37,691 bases of DNA from an uncultured Eubacterium sp. Its GTDB lineage: Bacteria > Bacillota > Clostridia > Lachnospirales > Lachnospiraceae. Where the stretch lies: the NCBI GenBank assembly GCA_947090545.1, contig CAMUPC010000013.1, positions 1 through 37,691 on the forward strand, given 5' to 3'. The translations under genes and the position numbers were made by a program. Below are positions 8,903-37,555 of the stretch, piece after piece (within the stretch, counting starts at the first letter, position 1; every line of letters starts with the position of its first letter). The notes beneath the pieces are model-generated. The model did no database searches. It was not told the origin of the DNA and was given only the letters and a program-made list of their open reading frames with translations.

Positions 8903-8935
8903 TTTAGATATTCCTTTTGCCTGGAGCGATTTTTA

Positions 8936-10363: not shown

Positions 10364-11444
10364 ATCTGCCCTCCCCCTGCTTTTTGTTATGCCAAACGCT
10401 TGCATTGACCAGGTAATCCGTCCAAGCATTCTTTTCCGCGAACCATGCAATCGCACTGCACAGCAGAATCGTAGCTGCCGTTATGAAAATCCATCCTCCA
10501 TTTGACGCCGTCTGTGCATCTGGCGTAAGCTGCCGCAACTGCTGCATCGGCAAAATCCCTGTATAGGCACCTGCTGCAAAAAGCAGCTTAAACACTGCAA
10601 AATGGGTAACAAGGACACAATAGGTATGTTTTCCCAACCATTGCAGGCATCGCACTTTTCTCATAGAAACGGCTGCGCAATAGACAAGATAAAAAGCCGC
10701 AAAACAAGAAAGGCATTGTATAAAAGGATCTGCAAACTCCCTTGTCGGCCAATTCATTGGCAATGTTCCAAAAAAATACCCCCCCCCGGAAAAAATTGTC
10801 ACTATGACACAAAAAGGCAGCATAATATTCCTGTCAATCTGTTCAAAAACATGCGCTCTTGCCATCCATAACCCTGCCGCAAAATAAAAACATGCCAAAA
10901 AAGCCAGATCAAAAGAATAAGGAAGCACGATGTGTTTTACCACAAGCGTATATCCACATCCTCCCGCCAACAAAACCAGTCCCAAAAAGCCCCATTTACA
11001 TCGAAACTTTTGAGTCATCCATTCCAACAGCCTGACAATCACCTGCACTTCAAATAACACAAATAAAAACCAAGTTGCCCCTCCTAACTCTGTAGTCTGC
11101 AAATGTAACAACAGCCCCGTCATCCATTTTGAAAAGCGCAAAGGCTCTGTGGCAGTAAAACAAGCATACACAGGATATCTGCCCATTACACTGTATATCA
11201 CAATATACAAAACATTGATGCATATCGCGGGCAGCAGAATCGTAACAATTTTTTTTCTGATAAACGCTGCCAGCGTATAATGCCCGCCGCGATAGGTATA
11301 GCCGGATAACAGAAAAAAAGCTGGCATATGAAATAAATAGATATACGTGACCAGCGGGCTTGTTGAATGTCCAGCCACAACTGCCAGAATTAAGAAAGCT
11401 TTCATGCTGTCCACCCAGTCAATCTGCTTCTTTTGCTCTTCCAT
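10353..11444 (-). CDS. acyltransferase family 3 (OafA-like) membrane O-acyltransferase with a poly-G tract
   Basis: The 363-residue protein begins at ATG 11442-11444 (MEEQKKQIDWVDSMK), 6 nt after GGAGAG; an upstream ATG overlapping the previous stop is less likely. It has about ten membrane helices and the Acyltransferase_3 hallmarks: IDWVDSMKAFLILAVVAGHS with the catalytic-type histidine, and YLFHMPAFFLLSGY. These enzymes acetylate or otherwise acylate surface polysaccharide using a cytoplasmic acyl donor. Nine G on the coding strand (10779-10787) encode Gly-Gly-Gly near residues 219-222, between two helices. With eight G translation stops within 8 codons; with ten it runs about 67 foreign codons and stops at 10588. 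The gene is in the full-length register as assembled. Confidence 0.88.
   Translation of the reverse strand: MEEQKKQIDWVDSMKAFLILAVVAGHSTSPLVTYIYLFHMPAFFLLSGYTYRGGHYTLAAFIRKKIVTILLPAICINVLYIVIYSVMGRYPVYACFTATEPLRFSKWMTGLLLHLQTTELGGATWFLFVLFEVQVIVRLLEWMTQKFRCKWGFLGLVLLAGGCGYTLVVKHIVLPYSFDLAFLACFYFAAGLWMARAHVFEQIDRNIMLPFCVIVTIFSGGGYFFGTLPMNWPTREFADPFIQCLSCFAAFYLVYCAAVSMRKVRCLQWLGKHTYCVLVTHFAVFKLLFAAGAYTGILPMQQLRQLTPDAQTASNGGWIFITAATILLCSAIAWFAEKNAWTDYLVNASVWHNKKQGEGRYVR
10779..10787 (-). repeat. poly-G tract (G9 on the coding strand) in the acyltransferase gene
   Basis: Nine C on the plus strand. The tract is in frame at nine G and encodes three glycines in a loop between membrane helices. A change of one base either way destroys the C-terminal third of the acyltransferase, so it could act as an ON/OFF switch for acylation. 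Confidence 0.8.
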
Positions 11445-11461
11445 ACACTCTCCTTCCTGCA

Positions 11462-14400
11462 TCAGACTTCACACCCCTGGCTCGTCCCGGCATCCACCCC
11501 ATCCCGATACCTCGGCATCCGCCACACCTTCTTCCACTTCTTCTCAAAAATCTTTCTGTTTTCCTCAAAGATCCTCTGATACTCCGCATCCTCCAGCTTA
11601 GCAAACGAAGCCCTCTGCATATGATGCACAAACGCATCCTCCGCAATAACGATCCGGTATCCGGCGCGCAGCACCTTTTCCGTAAAATCATCATCCTCAA
11701 ACATCCCAACCTTATAAGCCTCGTCGAGCAGCCCAACCTCTTCCAGCACACTCCTTCGGATCATCGTAGCAAACAGCGGCAGCCTGTCCACACGATGGTA
11801 TTCCTCTCCCATATGCGTTTGCGTATAGCAGTACGCAAACTGCGCTAATTCCGCAGCGCCGTGATAGTGCGCTTCGATCTTGGATTCGTTTCCAATCGAA
11901 TTGGTAACAGGATTGCACATAGCATAGCTGCGGTCATTTTCCAGATGCTTTACAAGGCTTGTCATCCACCCTCTTGTCACATACGTATCGTTATTCAGCA
12001 ATACGACATACACTCCATCCGCCGCTTTGATCCCGCAGTTATTCCCGCCCGCAAAGCCCAGGTTTTCGTTATTTAAGATGATCTTGACATTGTGCCTGTT
12101 CTGAGCGTCCAGTTCCTGCAAATACGCCCTTGTACCGTCCGTAGACGCATTATCTACTACGATCAGCTCAAAATGAGGATAAGCCGTCTGCGTCAGAATG
12201 CTTTCGATGCACTTTCTGTTTACCGCCTCGTTATTGTAGGCAAGCACAACGACACTGACTTTTGGCACCATTGCCTGGCAAGCGGCTGCAAAGTGCCCAA
12301 ACCGTTCCTGCCAGTCGTTTTGTCCTGCAAATTCCATGCATTCCCGCGCAGAATTTAACGTATCCTTCCGCTCTAAGCACAGCTTTACATAATTAAGAAA
12401 TTCGTCGTTGTCATTGGACAGATACACATACCGATCGCGGTATGGGCGCAGCTCCGGGATCTCGGTCGCCACAATCTTTTTGCCTGCGCTTAGGTACTCA
12501 TAAAACTTGACCGGGTTCGTTGCCCGGATCAGATCCGTACCCGTATCAAACGGGATCAGGCAGACGTCAAAATACGCCAGATGCTCCGGCAGCTTATCGT
12601 AATCCATTTCTCCAAGCAGACGGATATTTTTCCGCTTTTCCAAGTCACGCCTGTGTGCTGTTACTTCGCCGATTATGACAACCTCGCATTCCGGCAGCGC
12701 ATCTGCTACGTAGCATACTTTCTCATACGCGAACCAGTGTGCGACCGCACCGTAATAGCCGATAACTTTGCCTGAGACATCCGTGTCCGTATCCTGTGCA
12801 CGCCGCATGGCATATGCCTTTTGAAAATGCGCTGTCTGCGTACCGTTGCGAATCAGGCAGATCCGGGATTCGTCTGTGAATCTTTTTGCAATGTCGTATA
12901 AAAAGCTGGAGCTTGCCACGACCAAATCGCTTGTAGTTAACAGCTCTTTGCAGTTTTTCTTTAAAAACGGCTCTGCGGTTGCCGCAAATCCGGTGTAGTC
13001 GTCCATATAATCGGTGACGATCCGAAAACCGTAAGTTTCCCTCAGATAGTTTGCTCCAGCCAGCCAGTTTGGGTAATCGACAATGGTGACCGCGTCACGG
13101 ATGGCGTAGCGTTCCAATAGGGCATTCAGCGCCTTGTGCAGCCAGCCCTCGTTTTTGCGCCAGTCCGCGGTGTAGATATTGCTTGTCTTTTGGCTGTTCC
13201 AGTTTACGAGATACAGGTTTTCCCGCTTTTTTCGTATCGCGGCAGGGCTGGTAAAATTCGCGTTGATATAAAAGACCCGATGCCCGTGTTCTGCGAATTT
13301 TTCCGCAAAATGCTGGGGACGCTGATGCCTGAAATCGTAGTCTATTACGGATAATATAATGACGTCATACTTCGTATAGGGCTGCTTTAACATTGCTTTT
13401 GTCCTGTCGGATAATGGATGTTCCCTGCCTGTGGTTTTCTGCCCGTGATGCGCCTGTTTTGCCTTTTCACTTGTACATGCCAATGCTTCTGAAAGCCTTT
13501 GGTGTACATCCATCCAGGGATTAAAGCGGCAGACGTCTGCCGTATCGTGATTTGTCCCTGAGGCTTTGCCTTTCAGCCATTTTAAAAATGCTTTTCTTTC
13601 TGCTTTGCTGCCGCGCATATACTGGACGTGCAGGCGGATCAGCAGATGGTTGAAACGGCTTAGCTTTGCGGATGCGTAGCTGATGCACAGAGACTGGATC
13701 TGCCTGATTCTAGCTTCTGCCTGCTTGTTTTTTATTTCCATGGCAGAGATCATTTCTTCAAGTGCCAGGATCTGTTTCTGCTGTTCTGATTTCCTGCTGT
13801 TTTCTTCTGCAAGCTGCTTTTTCTGCGCCTGTATCTGTTCCATCTGATCATGAAGCTGCTTTTCCTGCGCCTTTAGGCATTCGCTCTGATTATGAAGCTG
13901 CTTTTCCTGTACCTGTAGTTGGCTGTTTTGTTTGTCAAGCTCTCTTTTACTATTGTCTGCTAATTCTTTGAATGTCTCTATCTGATACTCTTTTTCCCTT
14001 TCCTGCTGCTTCCAGTTGTTTTGTTCTTGTTCTGTCACTTGTCTTTGCGCTCTCATACAGTCACTATCAATATTTTCTACCAAATCTGATAAACGGCTGT
14101 ATATTTTCTGCTTAGCATAAATAAGCAAAATTTGTTCATATGGATAATAGACAGAACCACATTCCGCAGACTTTGCGTATACAAGATAGCTGTCCCCTAC
14201 ACGCAGGGGAATATCCTTTGTATAAAAAACACTTTCATGTTCTTCAATAACCCCTTGCTCTTCTCTGTATGGCATCAGAATCAGCGCATATTTCTCCGCC
14301 CTGCGGCAAATATGTTCGATCACATCATATGGCTGCTTAAAGTGTTCCACTACATTAGACGCGATGACAACCGGATACTTCTTTTCCTTGTCCGGTTTGA

Positions 14401-16048
14401 AAATATCGCCTACTTGAAACAAAAACTCAGGATAATTTTTTTGAGCTTTTGCTATTGCACTTTCAGAAAAATCTTCTCCTGCGATCTCCGATGTCCGAAA
14501 AGCCTGTTTATAGATTGTTAATGCATCTCCTTGCGCGCAGCCCAAATCACAGACTGCATCCCTATTTTCATTGATCTCATAAATCAGCCATTCTGGAAGC
14601 ATTTCTATCAACAGATCTGCAAAATAACGGGTTTGTTCTTTTCCGCCATACATTTCCCAATTTGATTCAAATCTGAAATTCCAGTATTCCTGGCTGTTCC
14701 TGGCAAACTCCACCGATTCTTGGCTTTCCTGTTTTTGTATTTTTTGTTCCTGCTTTTCGTTTGCAGCTTTTATCATCTCTAATAATTCCTTATCTTTAAT
14801 TATTCCAGCCGGAGGCTGATAATTTGGCGGTATCCGTATGTTTTTCGCTCCGGCTTTTTTTAGATACGCCCATATATCATCGATATAATCGTATCGCATA
14901 AATGATTCACATTGCAGACAATAGTCTGGAAGCATCTCCCAGTGAAACATCGCTTCCCGTAAATTTTGATAATTTTTCCCATTCCATACTGCTTCAATGC
15001 CATTGTCCTTTATCTTATCAATAATCCCAAAGGATGCGCAGCACGGTGAAACAGTCTGATCCGGCTGGATAAACATCACTTCAAACGGATTGGTGCAATA
15101 CGGCAAACAGATTTCTTCATGATCCCGTATTTTTTTCTTTTCCGTCTTAACTCTTCTGCTGGCTGTTTCCTCACAATGGAATTTGTCAAAATCCAAGTAT
15201 GGCTGTATCTGCTTTAGTTGTTCCAATTGTGCAAAAATAGCTTTCTGGTCAAATAGTTTCCCATCCTCAAATCCACTCCAGGAAATAACATTGTTGACCA
15301 CGATCTTTTGGTCCGCATTCCATTTTAAAATTTCCTGAAACTGCTGTTCTACTATTTCTTTGTCAGATTCTCTCAGGCGCAGTAACTGAATGACCTGATC
15401 CTCTTCGTATCCATAGACGTCATTAAATGTAATATAATCGATCCCATAAGTTACGGCTGCCTGGCACAGATCTTTTAGCTGTGTCATATTTAGACGATTT
15501 ACAACAACACACCATTGCAAAACGGTATCTGGCAGTGCAGCCCTCAGCTTTTTTACATTTTCCAATACATGGCTAAGCTTCGCTCCCAGGCGAAGAATCT
15601 CAAACGTTTTTGGATCTACACTGTCAATCGAAACCGCTATAATATTGACTCCCTTTTTTCCGTCTACCCCCCCCCCTAATTTTGAAAGCTCATACCTGTC
15701 AAGCTGCGTTCCGTTATTCGTAAGCTGCATACTGCAAAGTGCATCACTTTCTCTGCAAATTTCAATAAAAGCATCAAAATCATGATACAGGAATGGTTCC
15801 CCTCTTCCAGAAGGATTTACAAACTTCGCGCAATGCAGATACGGTTTTAATTGTTTCAGCAATTCCAATGGAATACTGACGGGTTTTTCTATTTTGGACA
15901 TACAAAAGCCACAATAATGGCAAAATGCGCAATGAAGGTTGCACACATTGGTAAGCCCAAACATGAACTGGACAGGGCTGCTGTCCATCCTGCTTTTTTT
16001 CTGTACTACATTCTCTATAAACTGCTGAAAATTATCATTCCTGTCCAC
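11462..16048 (-). CDS. multidomain radical SAM / methyltransferase / coiled-coil / GT4 / GT2 protein
   Basis: The 1528-residue protein starts at GTG 16046-16048, 7 nt after GGAGG. Domains in order: radical SAM with CX3CX2C (CNLHCAFC, residues 36-43) to about 250; a SPASM-like cysteine region about 320-400 (CLPYCTNPFEV, SPCCASFG, LPDYCLQC); a SAM methyltransferase about 453-590 (VCDLGCAQGDALTIY, VVIASNVVEHF); a charged coiled coil about 666-790 with KQL-type repeats; a GT4/TuaH-like glycosyltransferase about 890-1235 (RPQHFAEKFAEHGHRVFYIN, NPVKFYEYLSAGKKIVATE); and a GT2 glycosyltransferase from about 1260 (VSVVVLAYNN, LIVVDNASTDGT, VLLNNDTYV, MFEDDDF). The methyltransferase and GTs fit glycan assembly; the radical SAM reaction is unknown. 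Ten G on the coding strand at codons 125-127 are in frame, and a one-base slip either way stops translation within about 20 codons. It lies between the exporter ATPase and the acyltransferase. Confidence 0.88.
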   Translation of the reverse strand: MDRNDNFQQFIENVVQKKSRMDSSPVQFMFGLTNVCNLHCAFCHYCGFCMSKIEKPVSIPLELLKQLKPYLHCAKFVNPSGRGEPFLYHDFDAFIEICRESDALCSMQLTNNGTQLDRYELSKLGGGVDGKKGVNIIAVSIDSVDPKTFEILRLGAKLSHVLENVKKLRAALPDTVLQWCVVVNRLNMTQLKDLCQAAVTYGIDYITFNDVYGYEEDQVIQLLRLRESDKEIVEQQFQEILKWNADQKIVVNNVISWSGFEDGKLFDQKAIFAQLEQLKQIQPYLDFDKFHCEETASRRVKTEKKKIRDHEEICLPYCTNPFEVMFIQPDQTVSPCCASFGIIDKIKDNGIEAVWNGKNYQNLREAMFHWEMLPDYCLQCESFMRYDYIDDIWAYLKKAGAKNIRIPPNYQPPAGIIKDKELLEMIKAANEKQEQKIQKQESQESVEFARNSQEYWNFRFESNWEMYGGKEQTRYFADLLIEMLPEWLIYEINENRDAVCDLGCAQGDALTIYKQAFRTSEIAGEDFSESAIAKAQKNYPEFLFQVGDIFKPDKEKKYPVVIASNVVEHFKQPYDVIEHICRRAEKYALILMPYREEQGVIEEHESVFYTKDIPLRVGDSYLVYAKSAECGSVYYPYEQILLIYAKQKIYSRLSDLVENIDSDCMRAQRQVTEQEQNNWKQQEREKEYQIETFKELADNSKRELDKQNSQLQVQEKQLHNQSECLKAQEKQLHDQMEQIQAQKKQLAEENSRKSEQQKQILALEEMISAMEIKNKQAEARIRQIQSLCISYASAKLSRFNHLLIRLHVQYMRGSKAERKAFLKWLKGKASGTNHDTADVCRFNPWMDVHQRLSEALACTSEKAKQAHHGQKTTGREHPLSDRTKAMLKQPYTKYDVIILSVIDYDFRHQRPQHFAEKFAEHGHRVFYINANFTSPAAIRKKRENLYLVNWNSQKTSNIYTADWRKNEGWLHKALNALLERYAIRDAVTIVDYPNWLAGANYLRETYGFRIVTDYMDDYTGFAATAEPFLKKNCKELLTTSDLVVASSSFLYDIAKRFTDESRICLIRNGTQTAHFQKAYAMRRAQDTDTDVSGKVIGYYGAVAHWFAYEKVCYVADALPECEVVIIGEVTAHRRDLEKRKNIRLLGEMDYDKLPEHLAYFDVCLIPFDTGTDLIRATNPVKFYEYLSAGKKIVATEIPELRPYRDRYVYLSNDNDEFLNYVKLCLERKDTLNSARECMEFAGQNDWQERFGHFAAACQAMVPKVSVVVLAYNNEAVNRKCIESILTQTAYPHFELIVVDNASTDGTRAYLQELDAQNRHNVKIILNNENLGFAGGNNCGIKAADGVYVVLLNNDTYVTRGWMTSLVKHLENDRSYAMCNPVTNSIGNESKIEAHYHGAAELAQFAYCYTQTHMGEEYHRVDRLPLFATMIRRSVLEEVGLLDEAYKVGMFEDDDFTEKVLRAGYRIVIAEDAFVHHMQRASFAKLEDAEYQRIFEENRKIFEKKWKKVWRMPRYRDGVDAGTSQGCEV
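13690..14050 (-). repeat. repetitive coiled-coil coding segment
   Basis: Residues about 666-790 of the multidomain protein are rich in Q, K and E with near-repeats of QEKQLHNQSECLKA, QEKQLHDQMEQIQA and QKKQLAEENSRKSE (a 14-residue, 42-nt period). The DNA shows a matching direct repeat, tgaagctgcttttcctg at about 13851 and about 13893. It probably acts as a dimerising spacer between the methyltransferase and the glycosyltransferase domains, and the repeats could change number by recombination. Confidence 0.65.
15667..15676 (-). repeat. poly-G tract (G10 on the coding strand) in the multidomain radical SAM gene
   Basis: Ten C on the plus strand. The tract encodes Gly-Gly-Gly (residues 125-127) plus the first base of the next valine codon, in a loop just before the strand NIIAVSID of the radical SAM fold. 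Nine G gives GGG GGG GGG TAG, an immediate stop; eleven G stops about 15 codons later. It is in frame as assembled. Confidence 0.8.
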
Positions 16049-16063
16049 AATTGATCCTCCGCA

Positions 16064-16837
16064 TCATGTTTCTTTCTGTTCCCGTTCCTGCTTTATCCTT
16101 TGCAGATACCGCCCATGCACCTCCCTGGGCTCCCCAATCTCCTTCACCCGCCCATCCTCGATCCAGACCGTCCGGTCACAGATCTGTTCTATCTGGCTCA
16201 TCGCATGAGATACAATCACAATCGTCGTGCCGGCACGCTTAATTTCCTCCAGCCTGGCAAAGCATTTCTGCTGGAAACCGACGTCGCCGACCGCCAGTAT
16301 TTCATCGATCAGCAGCACGTCCGCGTCCACATGGATCGCCACTGAAAACGCCAGCCGCATGTACATGCCCGATGAATAGGTGCGTACCGGGTGGTCGATC
16401 GACTCTTCGATCTCGGAAAACTGGATGATCTCGTCCACTCTTTGCGCGATCTCCTTCCGATTCAGCCCAAAGACCGCGGCGTTCATATAGATATTTTCCC
16501 GCCCGCTCATGTCCGGGTGAAATCCTGCGCCCAGTTCCAGCAGGCTGGAAACCCTGCCCTGTATCGCAATGCTGCCGCTGTCTGGGTAGATGATTTTGGC
16601 GAGCAGCTTTAGCGTCGTGCTTTTCCCGCATCCGTTTTTTCCGATCATGCCAACCGCTTCCCCTTTTTTTACCTGAAACGTCACGCCCTTGAGCACTTCC
16701 CTGCGCTCGTAGCGGCTTCTTCCTCTGGATAAAATCCTGTCTTTGATTGTAAATCCGCGGTCGTTATAGATTTTAAACGCTTTTTTTACATCGCTGACCG
16801 CAATGGCGGTTTGCCTGCCTGCTTCTTCCCTTTTCAC
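16064..16837 (-). CDS. polysaccharide ABC exporter, ATP-binding subunit (Wzt/TagH/RfbE type)
   Basis: I start this at GTG 16835-16837 (VKREEAGRQ), 11 nt after GAGAGGA and just past the permease stop; the ATG at 16933 would overlap the permease by 76 nt and adds a sequence unlike the family. The 257-residue protein has Walker A GMIGKNGCGKSTTLKLL near residue 60. It also has the subfamily block SSLLELGAGFHPDMSGRENI, the signature TYSSGMYMRLAFS, and Walker B DVLLIDEILAVGD with the H-loop IVIVSHAM. This is the Wzt/TagH group that powers export of O-antigen-, teichoic- or rhamnan-type polysaccharide. It lacks the long C-terminal sugar-binding domain of some Wzt proteins. It works with the adjoining permease. 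Confidence 0.92.
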   Translation of the reverse strand: MKREEAGRQTAIAVSDVKKAFKIYNDRGFTIKDRILSRGRSRYERREVLKGVTFQVKKGEAVGMIGKNGCGKSTTLKLLAKIIYPDSGSIAIQGRVSSLLELGAGFHPDMSGRENIYMNAAVFGLNRKEIAQRVDEIIQFSEIEESIDHPVRTYSSGMYMRLAFSVAIHVDADVLLIDEILAVGDVGFQQKCFARLEEIKRAGTTIVIVSHAMSQIEQICDRTVWIEDGRVKEIGEPREVHGRYLQRIKQEREQKET

Positions 16838-16857
16838 AATGATAAAAGTCCTCTCTG

Positions 16858-17637
16858 TTATAGCTCTTCTACAAAATGCTTCTGCAATTTCCGAAAAACC
16901 TGCCACCCTGCAAGAAGCAGCACAATTCCCCAAAGCACCGCATAAGAAAGCGTCTGTAAGTCCGGCGCATGTTTATAATACAAAATATCGCGGTACGCGA
17001 TGATTACTGACGTCATCGGATTCAGATACAAAAAGCCCCGAATCGTCTCCGGTACGGTTTCTAGGGGATATAAAATCGGTGTCAAATACATCCACGCCAT
17101 CGTCAGGATATTTAAAATATATTCCAAATCCCTGAAATAGACCGTCCATGCGGAAAACAGCAGCGCCCCTCCAATTCCCATAACAAATTCAACAAAAAAA
17201 ACCAGCGGCAAATACCAAAGCACACGCACATCCACGCCGATTCCTGATAACAGCAGCGCCTCAAATACGACCAGAAAGCTTAGCAGCATATTGATAAAAT
17301 AGCTTGCCACCGCGGAGACAGGCAGCACCATCCTTGGAAAATAGATTTTTGCTACCAGGTTTTTCTGCTGGATAATCGACAGGGCTCCCGTGGAAATACA
17401 ACTGTTAAAAAAGAACCACGGGATCAGCGCGACAAATAAAAACATAGAAAAATGTTCTATTTCCGAGCGCATAAAAACCGAAAACACAATCGTATAAACC
17501 AGCAGTTGAAATAACGGCAGCAACAGGCTCCAGAAAAATCCCAGCACAGAGCCTTTGTATTTTCCGCGCAGCTCTTTGTGCACCAGGCTTCGGATCATCT
17601 CCCGGTACTGGTACAGCTCTTTCATATCCAAAAACAT
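16858..17637 (-). CDS. polysaccharide ABC exporter, permease subunit (ABC-2, Wzm/TagG type)
   Basis: I start at ATG 17635-17637 (MFLDMKELYQYREMIRSLV), 4 nt after the wecB stop and 9 nt after AAAGGGA; the longer frame from 17736 would overlap wecB by 95 nt. The 259-residue protein has the ABC-2 N-terminus with the amphipathic KELRGKYKGSVLGFFWSLL, about six membrane helices, and the family pattern ALIPWFFFNSC, AKIYFPRMVLPVSAV and YLTPILYP, then LNPMTSVIIAYRDI. With the ATPase just downstream it forms a transporter that moves undecaprenyl-linked polysaccharide across the membrane. It suggests an ABC-dependent rather than Wzx/Wzy-dependent pathway. Confidence 0.92.
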   Translation of the reverse strand: MFLDMKELYQYREMIRSLVHKELRGKYKGSVLGFFWSLLLPLFQLLVYTIVFSVFMRSEIEHFSMFLFVALIPWFFFNSCISTGALSIIQQKNLVAKIYFPRMVLPVSAVASYFINMLLSFLVVFEALLLSGIGVDVRVLWYLPLVFFVEFVMGIGGALLFSAWTVYFRDLEYILNILTMAWMYLTPILYPLETVPETIRGFLYLNPMTSVIIAYRDILYYKHAPDLQTLSYAVLWGIVLLLAGWQVFRKLQKHFVEEL

Positions 17638-17641
17638 AGCG

Positions 17642-18757
17642 TTACATCCCTTTCTGCCACTCCATAATACGCTGTACGATCCGTTCGCACGCATGTCCGT
17701 CTCCATATGGATTGACTGCCTTTGCCATCGCTTCATAGGCGGCGGGCTGATCGATCAGCCTGGATGCTTCGCGGACAATGTCCTCTTCCTGCACGCCTGC
17801 GACCTTAACTGTCCCAGCGGCAACCGCTTCCGGGCGTTCTGTCTCTGTGCGCAGGACGAGTACCGGCACGCCGAACGCCGGTGCCTCTTCCTGCAAGCCG
17901 CCGGAGTCTGTCAGGACAAGGTAGCTGCGGCTTAACAGGTTGTGCATGTCCTGGACGTCGAGCGGTGAAAGCAGCGCTGCGTTTGGAATGCCTGCCAGTA
18001 TGCTTTCTGCTGTGGAACGTACCGCAGGATTTAAGTGTACGGGATATACAAACTGCATCTGCCGATAACGGATGGCAAGCCGCCGGACTGCCCGACAGAT
18101 CTGCTCCAGCGGGCGTCCCAGGTTTTCCCTGCGGTGCGCTGTAACCAGTATCGTTTTGTGTTTCCCTGGATGGAGCTGTCGCAGTGTGCTGTTTTCAAAC
18201 ACATAGTTCTTGTGAATCGTTGTTTGAAATGCGTCCATCACGGTATTTCCCGTGACGAACACATTTTTTTCGATTCGTTCCCTGCGCAGGTTTTCCTTGT
18301 TCTGCTCTGTCGGCGCAAAATGCAGCTCCGCGATCTTTGCGGTCAGGTTTCGGTTCATCTCCTCTGGAAACGGTGAATATTTGTCATAGGTACGCAGCCC
18401 CGCCTCTACATGCCCGACTGGTATGTGCTGGTAAAAGGCGGCAAGAGCCGCCGCAAAGGAGGTCGAGGTATCGCCGTGCACAAGCACCAGGTTCGGCTGT
18501 TCCAAACGCAGCACCTGTTCAAATTTTTCCAGTACGCGCGTGGTAATCGTCGTCAAAGTCTGCCCAGGGCGCATAATATCCAGGTCATACTGCGGCTTGA
18601 TAGCAAAAATATCCATGACCTTGCCTAACATTTCCCGATGCTGCCCGCTCAGGCAGACAATGCTTTGTATGTCAGGATGCTTTTCCAGTTTTTGCACAAG
18701 CGGGCACATTTTTACCGCTTCCGGCCTTGTTCCAAATATGGACATTACTTTTATCAT
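17642..18757 (-). CDS. wecB: UDP-N-acetylglucosamine 2-epimerase (non-hydrolysing)
   Basis: The 371-residue protein shows MSIFGTRPEAVKMCPLV at the start, CLSGQHREML, VLVHGDTSTSFAAALAAF, GHVEAGLRTYDKYSPFPEE near residue 120, and LVTAHRRENLG plus LLTDSGGLQEEAPAFGVPVLVLR later. These are landmarks of WecB/MnaA, which interconverts UDP-GlcNAc and UDP-ManNAc in the cytoplasm. The product feeds ManNAc-containing polymers or linkage units such as the teichoic-acid linker. The gene lies 7 nt after the upstream glycosyltransferase and 4 nt before the exporter permease, so it is firmly inside the operon. ManNAc is therefore a likely component of the exported glycan (inference). Confidence 0.93.
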   Translation of the reverse strand: MIKVMSIFGTRPEAVKMCPLVQKLEKHPDIQSIVCLSGQHREMLGKVMDIFAIKPQYDLDIMRPGQTLTTITTRVLEKFEQVLRLEQPNLVLVHGDTSTSFAAALAAFYQHIPVGHVEAGLRTYDKYSPFPEEMNRNLTAKIAELHFAPTEQNKENLRRERIEKNVFVTGNTVMDAFQTTIHKNYVFENSTLRQLHPGKHKTILVTAHRRENLGRPLEQICRAVRRLAIRYRQMQFVYPVHLNPAVRSTAESILAGIPNAALLSPLDVQDMHNLLSRSYLVLTDSGGLQEEAPAFGVPVLVLRTETERPEAVAAGTVKVAGVQEEDIVREASRLIDQPAAYEAMAKAVNPYGDGHACERIVQRIMEWQKGM

Positions 18758-18764
18758 CTTCCCA

Positions 18765-19856
18765 TTAGTTCCTTTCCCGATCGTTCTTAAGCACTTGTTC
18801 CATTGCCCTCACTCTGGACTCCCAGCAGTTTTCTTCCAAAAACCTGCGATGCTGTGCCGGGCTGGAAAACGGACGCTTTGCCTTTGGAATCTGCGCGGCA
18901 AGCTCGTCCACACTGCTGTAAAGCGTCAGGTACTGCTCCAATTGGCTCGTCTCTTTGCTCTTTACCGCAAGCACCGGCTTATTCAGCGACAGGTATTCAT
19001 AGATTTTTACCGGATTGACCGTGTCTAACAGCGGCGTCTGTTTAAAATTATACAGACAGATATCAAAGGACTGTATGACCGCGGCAAGCTCGCTGTTTTT
19101 CCGAACGCCCAAATCATGGACTCTTTTGTCTGCCATCGGTTTTAAATAATTCCTGCCTGCAAGGAAGATCTCATACTGCGGGTCCAACTCCAGCAGTTTT
19201 TCTATTACCGCTGTATCGAACCATTCGCCGATCGTCCCTATATACCCGAAGCGTTTTACGTCTGCGACCGGCGCGTAAGAAACCGGAACGGATGCAAACT
19301 GGCTGGATACCGCGTTTGGAATCCAATACACGTGTTCTTTTTTCGGTTTTAGCTGCTCATAAAACAGGCGGCTTGTCACGAACAGAATGTCTGCAAGCTC
19401 TGTCAGCTTCTGTGCGCCGCGCTTTAATGTCATTTTCTGAAACACGGAGGATGCCAGCAGGTATTCTTCATCCATTTTGTCAAAGACGATGCATTTGTTT
19501 TTGATATGGCGCACAAGCGTATACCAGCCCGCATATCCGACCCAAACGACATCACATGCCGCAATCAGCCTGGATAACTGAAACAGCTCTGCCCAGTTAT
19601 TGACCCCGCACAGATCAAAGATTTCCATACTTTTATGGCACGTCAGGCTGCCGTTTAACCGGATCACCCAAAGCCTTTTTCCGGCACGCTTCTTCCTGCC
19701 CAAAAAGGTACGCCCGCCTTTTAACAGCCACCGCAGGCTGCTGACCGTTGGCTCGATATAATATACGTCATGATTTTTTGACAGGCACTGCGCGACCTGC
19801 TGCGGGCGCTGCTTCATATCATCATAATAAATAGGGGCAAGGTACAAGATCTTCAT
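18765..19856 (-). CDS. glycosyltransferase, TuaH/GT4-like
   Basis: Start at ATG 19854-19856 (MKILYLAPIYYDDMKQRPQQ), overlapping the 3' neighbourhood of the preceding gene (stop 19861-19863) and preceded by AAGGCGGTG; the ORF from 20111 would sit inside that gene. The 363-residue protein resembles GT-B enzymes of the TuaH group. It has RPQQVAQCLSKNHDVYYIEP near the N-terminus, VWVGYAGWYTLVRHI and IVFDKMDEEYLL in the middle, and the donor-site NPVKIYEYLSLNKPVLAVK near residue 285. The same layout appears in the GT4-like domain of the multidomain protein in this operon, so the two may be paralogues. Acceptor and donor are unknown. No membrane helices. Confidence 0.85.
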   Translation of the reverse strand: MKILYLAPIYYDDMKQRPQQVAQCLSKNHDVYYIEPTVSSLRWLLKGGRTFLGRKKRAGKRLWVIRLNGSLTCHKSMEIFDLCGVNNWAELFQLSRLIAACDVVWVGYAGWYTLVRHIKNKCIVFDKMDEEYLLASSVFQKMTLKRGAQKLTELADILFVTSRLFYEQLKPKKEHVYWIPNAVSSQFASVPVSYAPVADVKRFGYIGTIGEWFDTAVIEKLLELDPQYEIFLAGRNYLKPMADKRVHDLGVRKNSELAAVIQSFDICLYNFKQTPLLDTVNPVKIYEYLSLNKPVLAVKSKETSQLEQYLTLYSSVDELAAQIPKAKRPFSSPAQHRRFLEENCWESRVRAMEQVLKNDRERN

Positions 19857-19860
19857 ATGA

Positions 19861-22047
19861 TCACCGCCTTTTTCCTGCTGTTTTTTGAAATCTTTGCAGC
19901 AAACTACCGGCAAGCGTTTCGGGCATTCCCAAAAGGAGCAGGTCAAAATAAGCGTATTTGCGGCAAAACCTTCGGTAACGGAAAATGCCAAAGGCATCCC
20001 TGTTTTTTCGTGCGTCCGCAAATGCCTGCATTTGCTGTTCGTTCGGATAATGAATGCCGCGTGCGCGCATTTCCTGCACCAGCCTGTACATGGGAAGGAC
20101 CCGTTTTTCATAATAATCCTGCCTGTTCGCGATCGCTGCGAGCGCCTGCGTCTGGTTGCCGCGGTGCCTGCGGTAGCGGACTAACGGCTGCGGCACAAAA
20201 GCGACTGTGCCATATGCCGACGCATATGCTGCAACCCACTGGTCGCAATAGGCATCGCAAGCAAACGGCACCGCTTTTTTAACAAGCTCTGACCGCACGA
20301 GCATACTGCATCCAGCCGTACAGTTGTCCGCCAGATAATAAGCCGTCGTTCCTTTTCCATGCACAAACCGCAGCCCCCTGCGCAGGTTCCGAAGGCTTTT
20401 GTGCAGCATCCTGCCTGTTTCGTCAATCACAGACATATCACTGTACGCCATAACCGCGTGCTCCTTTTTCAGTGCATTCAGCAGTTTTTCCAGCTTCCTG
20501 CGCTCCCAGATATCATCCTGGTCGCAAAAAGCCATATACTGTCCGTGCGCAAGGCGCGCCAGCCTTTCAAACGCTTTATTTGAGCCTTCATTCCTGCTGT
20601 TTTTCTGCAAGGTTACCTTATGGCTGCAAGCGGCATCCAAAAGCTGCCAGGCTGCTGTCTCTGTCCGCTCCCACTCACCGCATATCCGCATACCAACAGC
20701 CACCGTATCCTTGATCTTCTCAAGCGGTATCCGTTTCGATCCGTCATCCAGCAGCAGGATTTCAAACTTCTGGTACGTCTGGTTTTTGATCGAACGTACC
20801 AGTGCGAGCAGCCAGTCCAGGTTTGGCTCATAAACAGCGATCAATATAGAAACCAGCGGCTTATATGCCATTCCCTCATAAATCTTTTGCATCTGCCTTT
20901 TGACTCTATTGCAGTCATATGCCGCAATCTTTTTTCGGTTGTACGCACCGCACGCAGCCCGAAGCTGGCTGTTTTTTAACAAGTCCAGGACGCTTTTTTT
21001 TAGTGCTTCCGTCTGTTTTAAGGAATACAGGCTGCCGCCGCATGGGTCAATCAGCTCTCTGTTTCCGCGGATATCAGACGCCACACAAGCAAGCCCTGCC
21101 GCCATCGCCTCCATCAAAGCCGCGGGCATCCCTTCTCTTTTGGACGGAAACAGGAAAAGGCCTGCATTTTGATAAAGAAAGGGCATCTGCTCCTGGTAGC
21201 CAGGCATACGGATATACGCTCCGATTCCAAGCCGTTTTGCCTGCGCTTTCAGCCTGTCCCCAAGCTTTCCCTGCCCGCAGATCAGATAATACACATCGTC
21301 TCCTAAGATTCCTGACAGCGCCTGGATTGCCTGGCGGTGGTTTTTTCCTTTATTTAATTCTCCAACGGATAAGATCACCAGCGCATGATCTGGTATGCGA
21401 TAATACCTGCAAAATCGTTTATGCCCATCCGCAAGGCTGCTTTTGGTGTCTGCGCTTTGTTCTTCGCCGCTTGGGTGCGCAAATTTTTGCGTATCAATGC
21501 CAACGCCGAAAATCCGGTATACGTTTTTCACATGCAAATGCTTCTTGGCAAATACATAGTCCTCTTCGTTGACCGTAATCAGCACATCGGTCCAGTACGA
21601 CAGCAGCTTCTCCGCCGGATAGTACACCAGCCAGTGAAAATATGGCGCTCCTTTGTAAAAATGGAAGCCATGCGCAGTATAAACAACACGCACTCCCAAA
21701 CGATGCGCCGCTGTCCTTAACAGTGCGCCGCCGACCGGAGACTGACTGTGTATCCATGCAAACGGGTACCGTTTTAACAGCTCCAGGATCTGGAGATAAG
21801 CCCTGCCGCATTTCCACACAGGCAAAATCCCGCGCGGGCAGTCCCACTGATGCAGCGTAACATGCAGCGCATGTAATCTGTTTTTCAGCTTTTTGATCCG
21901 CCTGTCGTCGCAGGTATTGCCTTTCTTAAAATTGCACGCCACATGCACCTCATATCCCAGATCCAGCAGCAGCCGGATATTGGGCATATTAAACTGGTCG
22001 ATCATGGAAGCTACAGACGCCGCAACGAGTACCTTCTCTTGTTTCAT
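19861..22047 (-). CDS. GT4-GT2 fusion glycosyltransferase
   Basis: The ATG at 22045-22047 overlaps the XRE stop (ATGA), so I take MKQEKVLVAASVASMIDQF as the start, giving 728 residues; the longer ORF would run into the regulator. Residues about 1-375 are an EpsD/CapM-like GT4: PNIRLLLDLGYEVHVACNF, VVYTAHGFHFYKGAP, LSVGELNKGKNH, and the EX7E motif REGMPAALMEAMAAGLACVA. Residues about 380-728 are a GT2: VSILIAVYEPNLDWLLALV, ILLLDDGSK, the DXD-like FCDQDDIWERRKL, and RYRRHRGNQTQ, typical of rhamnosyltransferase-like enzymes. Two joined transferases probably add successive sugars to the same lipid-linked acceptor. It is the first biosynthetic gene of the operon. Confidence 0.88.
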   Translation of the reverse strand: MKQEKVLVAASVASMIDQFNMPNIRLLLDLGYEVHVACNFKKGNTCDDRRIKKLKNRLHALHVTLHQWDCPRGILPVWKCGRAYLQILELLKRYPFAWIHSQSPVGGALLRTAAHRLGVRVVYTAHGFHFYKGAPYFHWLVYYPAEKLLSYWTDVLITVNEEDYVFAKKHLHVKNVYRIFGVGIDTQKFAHPSGEEQSADTKSSLADGHKRFCRYYRIPDHALVILSVGELNKGKNHRQAIQALSGILGDDVYYLICGQGKLGDRLKAQAKRLGIGAYIRMPGYQEQMPFLYQNAGLFLFPSKREGMPAALMEAMAAGLACVASDIRGNRELIDPCGGSLYSLKQTEALKKSVLDLLKNSQLRAACGAYNRKKIAAYDCNRVKRQMQKIYEGMAYKPLVSILIAVYEPNLDWLLALVRSIKNQTYQKFEILLLDDGSKRIPLEKIKDTVAVGMRICGEWERTETAAWQLLDAACSHKVTLQKNSRNEGSNKAFERLARLAHGQYMAFCDQDDIWERRKLEKLLNALKKEHAVMAYSDMSVIDETGRMLHKSLRNLRRGLRFVHGKGTTAYYLADNCTAGCSMLVRSELVKKAVPFACDAYCDQWVAAYASAYGTVAFVPQPLVRYRRHRGNQTQALAAIANRQDYYEKRVLPMYRLVQEMRARGIHYPNEQQMQAFADARKNRDAFGIFRYRRFCRKYAYFDLLLLGMPETLAGSLLQRFQKTAGKRR

Positions 22048-22439
22048 TTGATGCCTTCTTTGTCCGCACATGCTCTGTGAGGTTTCGTTTCCTCTGCTTC
22101 CTGCCCTGCGTTTCCCATAATATCCGCTACAGATTTCATGATCTGTATATACATCAGATAGTTGCCCTCTGCTTTCTGCTTTTGCTGTCTCCACATGCTT
22201 TTGATCATATCCTCAGAAGGCTGCGTCATACCAAAGAGCAGCGCGTCGGCATCTGTCTCCAGCTCCCTGCACATCGTTACAAACGTATCCATGCTCATTT
22301 TTTTCGTCCCGCGCTCAATATTGCCCATAAAGCTCAGGCTGATGCCGCACCGTCTGGCAAGCGTATCCTGTGACAGCCCTTTCAGCTTTCGGATCTTTCC
22401 GATCCTTGCCCCCATTTTTGCGTAATCTAACTGTTCCAT
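22044..22439 (-). CDS. XRE-family transcriptional regulator, first gene of the polysaccharide operon
   Basis: I start this at ATG 22437-22439 (MEQLDYAKMGARIGK), preceded by CGGGAGGG; 131 residues. A helix-turn-helix of Cro/C1 type covers about residues 9-63 (IGKIRKLKGLSQDTLARRCG, FMGNIERGTKKMSMDTF). The C-terminal half (SEDMIKSMWRQQKQKAEGNYL) is helical and unassigned. It overlaps the glycosyltransferase start by 4 nt (ATGA), so it is co-translated with the operon, and it is the first gene downstream of the predicted invertible promoter. It could autoregulate the operon or regulate other loci according to the switch state; the sequence alone does not decide. Confidence 0.9.
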   Translation of the reverse strand: MEQLDYAKMGARIGKIRKLKGLSQDTLARRCGISLSFMGNIERGTKKMSMDTFVTMCRELETDADALLFGMTQPSEDMIKSMWRQQKQKAEGNYLMYIQIMKSVADIMGNAGQEAEETKPHRACADKEGIK

Positions 22440-22491
22440 AAAACCCTCCCGGCAGATTAAAATAAAAGGAAATAAAACTCTTTTTATAATA

Positions 22492-22514
22492 CATAACATT
22501 TTCTAAAGAATTGT
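22492..22514 (+). repeat. left inverted repeat of the predicted invertible segment
   Basis: The 23-bp arm matches the reverse complement of 22820-22842 without mismatch. The next bases on both sides differ, so the repeat boundary is sharp. The local sequence also forms a smaller palindrome (ACATAACA at 22491-22498 and TGTTATGT at 22512-22519), absent from the right arm's surroundings. Confidence 0.85.
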
Positions 22515-22735
22515 TATGTACGACTCGTTTCGTTAAAACGCGAAAGCCCGCTGCCACAAAGGATTTGGCTTCTTTTGGATCAACATTTTCCCGCGGCGAT
22601 CTCGCAAGCTCTTTTTTGATACAGGTTTTATGCAAGTTTTGTGTAAATATTTCCGCTTTTTTATGCTTCTTTACTAATTTCAGCAAAAAATACAGCTTGA
22701 AATTTATAAAAATGGTACAAAATTTTGGATGGGGG

Positions 22736-22764
22736 TTGCAAAATCGTGAAAAAGCGAATAGAAT
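22736..22764 (+). promoter_or_regulatory. sigma-A-type promoter inside the invertible segment, facing away from the operon
   Basis: TTGCAA at 22736-22741 and TAGAAT at 22759-22764 are 17 nt apart on the plus strand. As assembled it fires toward 22842 and the antisense side of the next gene. I found no comparable leftward promoter in the segment. Confidence 0.6.
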
Positions 22765-22819
22765 ACTTATGAGCTGTTTTCAATGTATTTTTATTGACTA
22801 TAAGAATGATATTGACGTG

Positions 22820-22842
22820 ACAATTCTTTAGAAAATGTTATG
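22820..22842 (-). repeat. right inverted repeat of the predicted invertible segment
   Basis: Exact reverse complement of 22492-22514. It is preceded by ATTGAC (22811-22816), which after inversion would lie next to the left arm and could act as an additional -35 element reading toward the operon. Confidence 0.85.
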
Positions 22843-22851
22843 CCCTGAAAT

Positions 22852-22883
22852 AAAAAAACGATCACATAAAACGTATGTGACCG
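22852..22883 (-). terminator. rho-independent terminator of the AAA-ATPase-like gene
   Basis: On the minus strand CGGTCACAT (22883-22875) pairs with ATGTGATCG (22867-22859) around a 7-nt loop, with one G-U pair, and is followed by seven T. It lies 37 nt past the stop of the gene at 22921 and insulates the invertible region from transcription coming from the right. Confidence 0.8.
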
Positions 22884-22920
22884 TTGTGACCATTTTTTTG
22901 AAGCTTTTTATTCTGTTCCC

Positions 22921-24624
22921 TTATTCTTTTACCATTTCCCGGATCTCTTCCAGATACCCTCCCTCAATCCAAACCTCTTTTCCGCAAAACGCAAACCCAT
23001 AGATCCGAACCTGCCCTGCCCCGCCTCTTGTTTCCAATACAGCCTCATACTTTTTGTCCAAAATCTGCCGCAGCGCCGACCATGCCGTATCTTTTAGGCT
23101 TTGTTCCCCGGCGGATTGCTCAAACACTTTAAACTCTAAAATCATCCCGTCGTCATCACCGCCGCATGGTTCCAGCAGCACATCATATCTGCCAAACCCG
23201 CTTTCCCTGTTCGACGTGACTCGATACCTTCCGGCAAGATCTACGACAAGCCCAAGCACAAAACCGTGATAAAAGCGTTCCGGCTCTGTCTGCACAGAAG
23301 GCTTTTTCGCCGCAACCTGGTTCATATAGGCGTTCATGCCTTTTAAGTCGCCTGCAACCAATGCCTTTAAGAAACCGTTGTATTCGTATCTCTGATTCGC
23401 AAACCAGCCCTGGATCAATCTGCGAAACGCAACCAATGCCTCCTGGTTTGTCAGCGCCACCTCGTAGCTGCCGCCTCCGCTGCAAACCAAATCAGCCCCA
23501 TGATAAGCTGTAATTTTCAAATAACCGCTTGCCAGTAAAAAACTCCACACCGCATCACTGCGAACATCCAGTTCTCCAAAAACAATTTGCTCGTCCATCT
23601 GCACGCAAATCGTTTTGTTTTGCAAAAGATCTTCAAAAGCAGCCTTGATCTCTGCGTCCGCTTCCCGGACCAGCTTCCCTGCCAGGCTGCTGGAACTCGT
23701 ATTTGCCCAATACGGCGCAAGCACTTTTTCATCCAAAAACTGTGTAATTGACCACGGATTATAGATACTGTCACATGTTCCAAACCGAAACCCGTCATAC
23801 CAATGCTTTACCTCCGGCATCCGGTCCTGCATTCCAAACTCTCCCAATGCCTGGAATACTTCTTCCTCTGTAAAGCCAAACGCCGTATCATATTTTTTCG
23901 TCGTCGTAGTCACAACGGCAAGGTTATTCAAATCCGAAAAAACCGATTCCCTGCTCACTCTCGTAATGCCTGTCATCACAGCGCGTTCCAGGTACTGGTT
24001 CGTTTTAAACGTAAGATTGAACATGCCGCTGATAAACCTTGTAAATACCTCCCAGTAGCCATTCAAATATGCCTCCTGCATCGGAGTATCATACTCATCC
24101 AGTAAAATAATTACCTTTTTCCCATAGTAATAGTATAAATATTCCGACAGCACTTGCAAAGCCGCCTTGCATTCGCTGACAGAAACAGCACCGTCCATCA
24201 TGCGCGAAAACTGTCCTCTGGAGACCTGAATGCTTTCGTCTTTCAAAAGAAAGGCATATTTGCGGTATTCCTGCGCAATCAGCCCGCAGATATCCGAATA
24301 TGCTTCATCAAAGCTTGCCGCCTTTACTCCCGCAAAGCTTAAAAAAAGAACCGGATATGTCCCCTGTAGCAATCTGTAGCCGTCCTCCTTCCAGATATCC
24401 AGATCTTGAAACAAATCGCTCCGGCAGGCATAATGAACCGAGAAAAAGTCATACAGCAAAGACATCGCAAGCGTTTTTCCAAATCTCCTGGGACGGGTAA
24501 TTAACGTAACGGTATCCCCATTTTCCCACCATTCTTTGATAAAATTCGTTTTATCAACGTAAAAATATTGATTCTCAATGATTTTGCAAAAATCCTGCTC
24601 TCCGACTGCGACTGTCCTTGCCAT
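22921..24624 (-). CDS. AAA-ATPase-like protein with PD-(D/E)XK nuclease domain (DUF1703 type)
   Basis: I start this at ATG 24622-24624 (MARTVAVGEQDFCKIIENQ), after a GGGGGA site; the longer frame from 24732 reaches into the promoter. The 567-residue protein has the AAA-ATPase-like N-terminus with FYVDKTNFIKEWW, the P-loop-like RPRRFGKTLAMSLLYDFF near residue 45, and VIILLDEYDTPMQEAYLNGY near residue 180. A PD-(D/E)XK-like end follows, GRYDVLLEPCGG then MILEFKVF (the D and E-x-K pair), near residues 505-525. Proteins of this kind are numerous and often multi-copy in Bacteroidetes and Clostridia, and their role is unsettled (mobile or defence functions have been suggested). It forms its own unit, with promoter and terminator. 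Confidence 0.88.
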   Translation of the reverse strand: MARTVAVGEQDFCKIIENQYFYVDKTNFIKEWWENGDTVTLITRPRRFGKTLAMSLLYDFFSVHYACRSDLFQDLDIWKEDGYRLLQGTYPVLFLSFAGVKAASFDEAYSDICGLIAQEYRKYAFLLKDESIQVSRGQFSRMMDGAVSVSECKAALQVLSEYLYYYYGKKVIILLDEYDTPMQEAYLNGYWEVFTRFISGMFNLTFKTNQYLERAVMTGITRVSRESVFSDLNNLAVVTTTTKKYDTAFGFTEEEVFQALGEFGMQDRMPEVKHWYDGFRFGTCDSIYNPWSITQFLDEKVLAPYWANTSSSSLAGKLVREADAEIKAAFEDLLQNKTICVQMDEQIVFGELDVRSDAVWSFLLASGYLKITAYHGADLVCSGGGSYEVALTNQEALVAFRRLIQGWFANQRYEYNGFLKALVAGDLKGMNAYMNQVAAKKPSVQTEPERFYHGFVLGLVVDLAGRYRVTSNRESGFGRYDVLLEPCGGDDDGMILEFKVFEQSAGEQSLKDTAWSALRQILDKKYEAVLETRGGAGQVRIYGFAFCGKEVWIEGGYLEEIREMVKE

Positions 24625-24655
24625 CCTGATATCCCCCGCTTTTTCATTTTTTCTT

Positions 24656-24684
24656 ATTGTAGCTGATGCAAAGCAAAAAAACAA
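24656..24684 (-). promoter_or_regulatory. promoter for the AAA-ATPase-like gene
   Basis: On the minus strand TTGTTT (24684-24679) and TACAAT (24661-24656) are 17 nt apart, leaving a leader of about 25 nt before the ATG at 24624. Confidence 0.55.
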
Positions 24685-24725
24685 GGCACTTTCCATTGCT
24701 AAATAGAAAGCACCCCGCGTTGTCC

Positions 24726-24755
24726 TTGACAATCCCTATCCTACTGCATTATGAT
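24726..24755 (+). promoter_or_regulatory. promoter for the truncated AraC-type gene
   Basis: TTGACA (24726-24731) and TATGAT (24750-24755) are 18 nt apart, followed 75 nt later by the ATG at 24831 with AAGGAG upstream. The promoter survives although its gene is destroyed. Confidence 0.65.
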
Positions 24756-36388: not shown

Positions 36389-36815
36389 TCAATTATCCCA
36401 GCCCCCTGGTCATTATTATCCAAACCATTGTATCATATTTGCTTCCCGATGAATACGATTTTTTTGCGTTGTATTGTTGTTTTTTTAAGAGATAGTATTG
36501 TGATTGTTCTGTCTATTTGTTTAATCGTTTGTTGTTTTCTGTGTTTTTGAATATTTGTCTGAAAATTTGGAGGACAGAATCCAACAAAATTTTAAATGGA
36601 TGCTTCACTGCCTTATCTTTTTTGATTTGTGTTGGTGTTTTGGAAGTGTTCGTTCGGCTGTGCTGCAACAACAGTATAGCACTGTTTTTGTTGCTTGTCA
36701 TTATGAAATATTTTCTTTTTTCCTATTATATTTATTGTATATCGGGTAGTTTTTCCGGGAGCGGGGATGGTGTTTTGTTCTTTTTTTAGGTTTGGGGGTT
36801 TGGCGAACGGACGCT
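36389..36815. other. AT-rich intergenic region without a convincing gene
   Basis: Beyond the deacetylase promoter this stretch is very rich in T on the plus strand. The open frames in it (for example about 36517-36789) are low-complexity, F/L/I/C-rich, lack ribosome sites and resemble nothing I know. I see no tRNA or clear terminator. Confidence 0.6.
36427..36435 (-). promoter_or_regulatory. extended -10 promoter for the deacetylase operon
   Basis: On the minus strand TGATACAAT gives a TGnTACAAT extended -10 (TACAAT at 36432-36427), about 40 nt before the ATG at 36388. The -35 region is poor (near ATTCAT), which is usual for extended -10 promoters. Confidence 0.55.
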
Positions 36816-37045
36816 GGGAGAGGGGATTGACACGCCCTGGCTGCGTCCGTTCCAGAAGGTTAAGAAGCTCTAGGCATCCTGCGGGAAGCTGTGGCACCGT
36901 CCGGGCGCGGCACCTAGTTCGCCCTGGCGTTCCGCCAGCAGCTAAAGGTGCCGCTTGGCTTCGCCCCTGCTTTAGTTCAGCAGGATGCCAAGTGCTTCTA
37001 AACCTTCTTCCAAGGCCCAGCCAGGGCGTGTCAATCTCCTCTCCC
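36816..37045. repeat. large inverted repeat with nested hairpins
   Basis: Arm A (36816-36881) and arm B (36981-37045) are about 65-nt near-perfect inverted copies, both containing the word for CACGCCCTGGCTG and AGAAGGTT(T)AGAAGC with a few mismatches. The 99-nt centre is GC-rich and contains further nested inverted words: GGCACC (36919-36924) against GGTGCC (36947-36952), and CTGGCG against CGCCAG with a 3-nt loop. Transcribed, it would fold into a long branched hairpin. It may be a dispersed intergenic element or a structured RNA; no transposase is present. Confidence 0.7.
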
Positions 37046-37316
37046 GGCTGGTTTTCGCAAATTCTACGAAAAAATATCGGTACATTGTGTGCAGTCGTGT
37101 TTCTGGAAACTCTTGTTTTTTAGAAGTAATGGTCAGATTTTAGGCTGCTTGTCATTGTTGTTTCTGGATGCAAGCAATCCCTCTCCCGGCTGGTTTTCGC
37201 ATATTCTGCGAAAAAATATCGGTACATTGTGTGCAACCGTGTTTCTGGAGATTCTTGTTTTTTAGAAGTAATGGTCAGATTTTAGGCTGCTTGTCATTGT
37301 TGGTTCTGGATACAAG
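37039..37316. repeat. two direct repeats of ~136 bp
   Basis: 37039-37174 and 37181-37316 are about 90 percent or more identical by eye, offset by 142 nt. Each starts CTCTCCCGGCTGG, contains a small hairpin (TTTTCGCA, five bases, TGCGAAAA in the second copy, one base different in the first) and ends near TTCTGGAT(G/A)CAAG. The first copy overlaps arm B of the adjoining inverted repeat. Confidence 0.75.
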
Positions 37317-37555
37317 GCTTGCTGCCTGTATGCCGTAGTTGATGTAGAGTCCTCGGAGATCAGTCAGCAAAAGGAGAAACATAAGCTGAACTGGCTTCCA
37401 ATTTCCTTCCTGCGTCTGCCGCTCCCAATCTCTGGATAAGACAAGCCCAAAGCCAACTTGAAAAAAGCCATATAGGACTCGTAGCCGTTCAGGAACAAAT
37501 CATGGCTTACCACAGGCATTAACGCACATAAACAAGCAACTGCCAACAACGCTCC

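Follow-up and report, generated by a model that had tools for sequence, protein, structure and literature searches.

A putative invertible promoter, seen in the OFF orientation, ahead of a glycan operon in an uncultured Eubacterium

The segment at positions 22492–22842 of the window (the whole stretch of 37,691 nucleotides from an uncultured Eubacterium sp. analysed here) is very probably, judging from its sequence, a site-specifically invertible promoter in the OFF orientation, both orientations being seen in related loci. The genome has about 20 such units, of which this is one, and most are OFF. A sequence-only reading had already placed an invertible promoter, switched OFF, before a glycan operon at this position, and that proposal is now supported by a family of recombination sites, by their paired cores, and by the presence of both orientations in relatives. 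As in an inverton, inverted repeats at the window flank a promoter beside the gene that it would regulate, and within the family both orientations occur with breakpoints at the repeats; the window itself is seen OFF.

We infer inversion at the window locus, the enzyme responsible, the effect on transcription, and the surface location of the glycan, in the following form. A recombinase, likely of the tyrosine type and acting in trans, would exchange strands at two inverted 27-bp sites, and this exchange, at 10-bp half-sites with a 7-nt overlap, would flip the 351-bp segment. In the orientation seen, with the promoter directed away from the operon, the XRE-led glycan operon should be silent, and the flipped promoter would drive transcription of the XRE gene and the 19-kb operon, the leader being about 124 nt long. 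With up to about 20 units in each genome, most of them OFF, cells of one population would differ in their surface glycans, and the bacterium probably alters its surface when one of its switches is turned ON.

The switch region and the operon behind it

The two perfect 23-bp inverted repeats around 305 bp that had been noted earlier were verified at 22492–22514 and 22820–22842, and the repeat extends to 28 nt at 93%. The longest perfect inverted repeat in the region 22001–23300 is 23 nt, whereas across 1000 first-order resamples such repeats reached 14 nt at most. Taken singly, the arms are 27-bp near-palindromic sites, members of a large family in the genome. The operon-side site (22492–22518), which has no mismatches to the family site pattern, comprises half-sites 22492–22501 and 22509–22518 on both sides of the 7-nt core TCTAAAG (22502–22508). 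The far-side site (22816–22842) carries the same core, inverted, and the half-site on its inner side, towards the promoter, has the variant ending GTCACG; this variant implies that the switch may be slow. Between the sites lies the interior of the invertible segment (22519–22815; neither it nor the sites are assigned a strand), in which comparison with related segments reveals a promoter end conserved across the family and a variable remainder.

The promoter, TTGCAA-N17-TAGAAT, is located at 22736–22764 on the plus strand and points away from the operon. It had been described as the sole good promoter, directed rightward, with none directed leftward. The first part stands, as a single promoter-like match, counting either strand, was found in 21500–23800; the second part does not hold at looser settings, under which one weak leftward match appears inside the segment (10/12, spacer 18, -10 TACCAT). 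A promoter scan of shuffled sequence gave a mean of 3.1 matches, and the scan alone is therefore no evidence; the weight of this promoter comes from its conservation across related segments. The -35 hexamer, TTGCAA instead of TTGACA, may be the site of a regulator. After inversion the end of the -10 element would fall at 22570 and, with the transcription start taken 7 nt beyond it, the computed start site is 22563, 124 nt before the ATG of the XRE gene, close to the distance of about 130 nt estimated previously.

The switch was correctly placed between the terminator of the right-hand gene and the XRE gene: a terminator-like hairpin ending that gene lies just beyond the switch on the minus strand (22857–22885, read from 22885 to 22857), and the XRE gene starts at 22439, within an open reading frame listed from 22499. 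The right-hand neighbour (22924–24732, minus strand), which is outside the switch, encodes an AAA-ATPase_like/PDDEXK_9 protein according to the Pfam scan. On the other side, the leader gene and first gene of the operon (22047–22439, minus strand) encodes an XRE/HTH_3 protein of 131 residues (HTH_3, 5.9e-08). The glycan operon of 19 kb reported behind it is borne out by the open reading frames and Pfam families of a leftward gene run from 22439 to about 3119 (3119–22439, minus strand), about 19.3 kb in all. Ten proteins of the window, nine from the operon and the right-hand neighbour, were scanned against Pfam. Families were assigned to seven of the nine operon proteins and none to the other two; they comprise HTH, glycosyltransferases, UDP-GlcNAc 2-epimerase, ABC-2 permease, ABC ATPase, and acyltransferase. 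The ABC-2 permease and the ABC ATPase (16067–17736, minus strand; PF01061 and PF00005) form a Wzm/Wzt-like exporter. At 11462–16048, a single open reading frame of 1528 residues joins regions resembling radical SAM, methyltransferase, and glycosyltransferase proteins.

A family of switches in the genus

The genome to which the window belongs (G000, 4.42 Mb in 380 contigs) was compared with those of Eubacterium plexicaudatum ASF492 (G001) and of uncultured Eubacterium, Eubacteriaceae, and Lachnospiraceae, names being available for 80 of the 85 loci outside G000. Copies of the arm elsewhere in the genome had been proposed as a check, and a large family of them was found. When G000 was searched at the DNA level with the switch region, eight other contigs were found to contain related pieces, and a search with the arm pattern returned inverted pairs; the 27-base pattern gave 36 strand matches, with palindromic sites counted twice, and its backwards control gave none. 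Each of the nine segments of G000 found by the DNA search leads into a small XRE gene, beyond which lie glycosyltransferase-like and ABC-2 exporter-like genes, judged by eye at the other loci and by Pfam for the window operon. G000 has 21 XRE places in total, and in 18 of them a resolved pair of sites is present directly upstream. Two of the remaining places (on C37 and C17) are truncated where their contig stops, and the third (on C14) has no site.

A profile built from eight XRE proteins detected the XRE family in 11 of 13 genus genomes. The two genomes without it, G007 and G010, have one and zero site matches, respectively. Among 299 sampled genomes of the bacterial family, the symmetric site pattern matched G000 and one other, the latter at a single place with two mismatches. 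Outside the genus, single weak XRE matches in G104 and G125 have no good site within the 1.9 and 3.3 kb examined, and viral contigs searched with one XRE protein contained no relative.

Two groups of XRE genes deviate from the common arrangement. The member on C14 of G000 (L218, 32042–32368), which lacks an upstream site, is followed by 5.5 kb with no same-strand open reading frame of at least 150 residues and may be a free-standing regulator. In ASF492, the XRE gene of the trusted ON locus (L176, near 610.9 kb) is split over two reading frames and gives two partial matches, and a split of the same kind affects the copies near 628.9 and 6247.5 kb.

Anatomy of the sites

Site pairs were sought at 147 XRE places in 11 genomes; 110 of them have a distal site 250–380 bp away, and 37 are without a resolved pair. 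The partner was picked with the seven central positions masked. The family site derived from the 110 pairs is CATAACATTT-TNNNNNA-AAATGTTATG, in which inverted half-sites of 10 bp enclose a core of 7 nt. Both members of a pair have the same core in 100 of the 110 pairs, whereas 2000 shuffled pairings averaged 3.0 such matches and reached 9 at most. Identity within pairs is 0.93–0.97 at positions 11–17, and between loci it is 0.32–0.58 at positions 11–16 and 0.94 at position 17. Such a pair-specific core is a signature by which recombinase sites could be found from sequence alone.

In the 100 segments left after cleaning, the promoter takes one of two positions. The distance between its end and the segment's near end is 77–78 bp in 19 of them, the window included, and 34–35 bp in 81; segments of the former class measure 339–371 bp between outer arm ends and those of the latter mostly 292 to 336 bp. 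The -35 hexamer is identical in 95 and the -10 hexamer in 87 of these 100 segments, in which the positions were picked by best match to the same hexamers.

Inversion sites of tyrosine recombinases have a matched overlap of 6–8 nt between inverted half-sites, and for serine invertases a 2-bp matched centre suffices. The matched core of 7 nt falls within the former range and therefore argues for a tyrosine rather than a serine recombinase. Another idea about the cores, that they serve as an address code kept distinct within each genome against recombination between loci, found no support: 22 within-genome duplicates were counted and 14.4 were expected (P(<=observed)=0.999). Near-tandem copies in G002 contribute to these duplicates.

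Orientation of the switches

Comparison of orientation in relatives, put forward earlier as a check, brought to light related loci with a reversed promoter. The promoter points away from the XRE gene (OFF) in 92 of the 100 cleaned pairs and towards it (ON) in eight. The ON pairs are found one each in G000, G001, G004, G005, and G008, with three in G002; there are none in G003, G009, G011, and G012, and G006 has no cleaned pair. The ON locus of G000 is on C45. Ten of the 110 pairs were left out of this count, with core identity among the filters. They comprise one pair on C8 of G000 with promoters scored both ways, of which the one at the customary position is OFF; two pairs called ON but with a poor distal arm (G001:1626k and G006:C216); three pairs without a promoter call; and four that were mispaired, weak, or mismatched in the core.

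The outermost bases of the inner half-site provide a marker of inversion. Of 73 informative OFF pairs, 72 have the variant inner half-site on the side of the promoter, and in all six informative ON pairs it is on the XRE side, having moved with the promoter (Fisher P 2.5e-8; 19 OFF and two ON pairs are uninformative). This joint movement is what strand exchange inside the core predicts. Among these six ON pairs, two (C42a and C50a) belong to paired copies in G002. On C42 of that genome, two units have flanks of 597 and 133 bp at 100% identity, between which the 351-bp segment is reversed from arm to arm, also at 100% identity. On C50, 297 bp are inverted at 100% identity between flanks of 546 bp (99.8%) and 113 bp (99.1%), and further inverted copies are present on C2 and C47. 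The paired copies could be tandem duplicates or two states strung together in the assembly; under either origin inversion is needed, though not necessarily a recent one. In addition, on C47 of G002 an inverton at 41745–42083 (L096/L267) lies between two divergent XRE genes, with 346 bp of identical flanks, and the same core occurs again about 14 kb away on that contig; this arrangement could be a larger inversion or a product of assembly.

Contig ends are unusually frequent near the switches. Of the 147 XRE places, 18 have a contig end within 200 bp upstream of the gene, where 1.56 would be expected (Poisson P 1e-13); only one has an end within that distance downstream. Eight of the 18 belong to G004. 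Coexisting orientations would produce such an excess, although strain variation in glycan loci could also be its cause. Five contigs of G000 (C44, C45, C31, C5, and C24; L039, L038, L040, L042, and L210, respectively) begin about 180–470 bp past the far arm of a switch, and assembly thus breaks upstream of the switches too.

Eight XRE paralogues of one genome share much of their helix-turn-helix region without variation, and a promoter block is common to related segments; because both are conserved across loci, cross-locus control is possible. We can tentatively speculate that the genus has an expression-site system, in which about 20 glycan operons are OFF and roughly one is ON per cell through cross-binding by XRE, although we consider this the less probable course. 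The XRE protein from the ON locus would then bind the promoter regions of other loci and stop their use or inversion.

The window could instead carry a former inverton that has become, in this strain, a relic locked OFF. Its half-site on the promoter side is a variant, 92 of the 100 related pairs are OFF, and two relatives keep a one-armed remnant only, in the same orientation. In these orthologues of the window locus, G002:C9 (L077) and G004:C80 (L078), the operon beside the switch is lost, and one far-side site and the promoter remain in the OFF orientation of the window; an AAA-ATPase_like gene still adjoins the site, which keeps the same or a similar variant half-site. However, the core, both arms, and the promoter are intact at the window, the genome has an ON locus as well as four small candidate recombinases, and the OFF bias is general in the family rather than special to this locus, all of which makes a relic improbable. 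The reading of the arms as operators, in which an XRE dimer would bind both palindromic sites and loop the promoter with no inversion, is hardly tenable: the near-palindromic arms, the XRE gene next to every segment found by the DNA search, and the conserved -35 TTGCAA, itself palindromic, would suit it, but operators need no pair-specific 7-nt centre of the kind that matches within pairs and differs between loci, nor do they account for ON and OFF orientations with swapped half-sites or for the same segment lying both ways in G002.

Candidate recombinases

If the segment is inverted by a site-specific recombinase, as we favour, the enzyme is likely, with good confidence, of the tyrosine type. 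A check of the genome for recombinase genes, also proposed with the sequence-only reading, turned up candidates of both the tyrosine and serine types. G000 has 16 tyrosine-recombinase matches, none of them on the contig of the window; the only one that shares a contig with a resolved switch is on C24, about 24 kb away from it.

Four of the proteins encoded in G000 (on C4, C100, C74, and C22), of about 191 residues and FimB/E-like, form a family designated here A2, which we regard as a candidate with roughly even prospects of being the enzyme. They match the models of tyrosine-type DNA invertases NF007371 and NF007370 over nearly their full length, with 44–54 bits for NF007371, below its cut-off of 222; the best model for each is archaeal XerA, likewise below cut-off. 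A2 proteins (E<=1e-20) are present in seven of the 13 genus genomes, namely the six with a trusted ON pair and G009. At the same threshold, they were not found in G003, G006, G011, and G012, which have XRE genes and site matches, with resolved pairs in G003, G011, and G012; A2 was therefore rejected as the universal enzyme. ON orientation occurs in 8 of 80 pairs from genomes with A2 and in 0 of 20 from those without (Fisher P 0.35). Nor is the family diagnostic, because it is present in many genomes without sites: it was found in 31 of the 299 sampled family genomes, G000 included, nearly all of which lack them.

Extraction of the A2 genes and their tree covered 22 of 23 entries. Two A2 genes, on C74 of G000 (L044, 7514–8252) and on C9 of G005 (L234), are situated between inverted sites of a related kind, with the half-site GCAACA-TTT and matching inverted cores, and this recombinase cassette may itself flip. 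It is a lead only, since the downstream site copy on C74 also resembles a terminator hairpin followed by T's and since 20 of the 22 extracted A2 genes have no flanking pair of sites.

A housekeeping Xer recombinase might flip the sites in place of the small FimB/E-like family, which we regard as unlikely but worth keeping in view. An XerS-like protein of about 348 residues, 84–93% identical, was present in all eight genomes extracted (by a motif, which misses XerC/D-like proteins lacking it), among them G003, G011, and G012, which have site pairs without the small family. It is, however, equally conserved in G007 and G010, in which the XRE family is missing and site matches number one and zero. 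Still less probable is that a small Mpi-like serine invertase flips the sites. Genus genomes both with and without the switch system encode serine recombinases of about 205 residues (12 of 14 were extracted), but close relatives of the small ones of G000 are also present in G007, which has one site match and no XRE family, and the 7 nt matched within pairs exceed the 2-bp centre that such enzymes need.

Comparison with known systems

Capsule switching by many invertible promoters is best known from Bacteroidota, and Mpi of Bacteroides fragilis, which inverts such promoters, is a serine invertase. Unlike Mpi, the recombinase proposed here is probably of the tyrosine type. The strategy known from Bacteroidota capsules apparently recurs in a Gram-positive gut genus, where it seems to be built from different parts. 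B. fragilis has eight capsule loci, PSA–PSH, with UpxY/UpxZ leader genes, and seven of them have inverting promoters under one invertase (PMC12632263). The two systems agree in having many glycan operons per genome, each behind its own invertible promoter with inverted repeats (18 resolved pairs in G000), and regulator genes as the first in the operon. They differ in the host, here a Lachnospiraceae-type gut genus and not a member of Bacteroidota; in the leader, here HTH_3/XRE and not UpxY/UpxZ; in the locus-specific 7-nt core of the site; in the ABC-2 exporter pair of the window operon; and in the number of loci, here about 20 rather than eight, more than twice that of B. fragilis.

The fim switch of E. 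coli, acted on by FimB and FimE, is an invertible promoter segment of about 300 bp. The segment described here is of similar size, and the A2 candidates match models of tyrosine-type DNA invertases, although their scores are below the cut-off of the curated FimB/FimE family. In contrast to fim, there are many loci rather than one, and no recombinase gene lies beside the window switch.

RecV belongs to the invertible switches of Clostridioides difficile. Those switches have other targets than the ones described here. Several invertible promoters in this clostridial genome are covered by a phase-variation review, pdcB/pdcC among the cases named (PMC11868660). In the hCom2 gut community, Clostridia-like (Firmicutes_A) genomes have a median of three invertons each, with repeat motifs that were previously unpublished; the main text of that survey, whose motifs are in the supplements, contains no mention of capsular, Lachnospiraceae, or Eubacterium (PMC11892184). 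A literature search on invertons in Lachnospiraceae, Firmicutes, and E. plexicaudatum/ASF492, with most subscription papers outside its scope, found no description of this system.

E. plexicaudatum ASF492 is a member of the altered Schaedler flora, a defined mouse community, and the system could therefore be tested in gnotobiotic mice. Questions suited to such animals include which glycan is ON, how fast the switches flip, and whether their state is under selection by phages or immunity. A last observation concerns the right end of the window: pieces of 36809–37691 repeat internally and match several places in G002:C9, and are probably part of a dispersed repeat.
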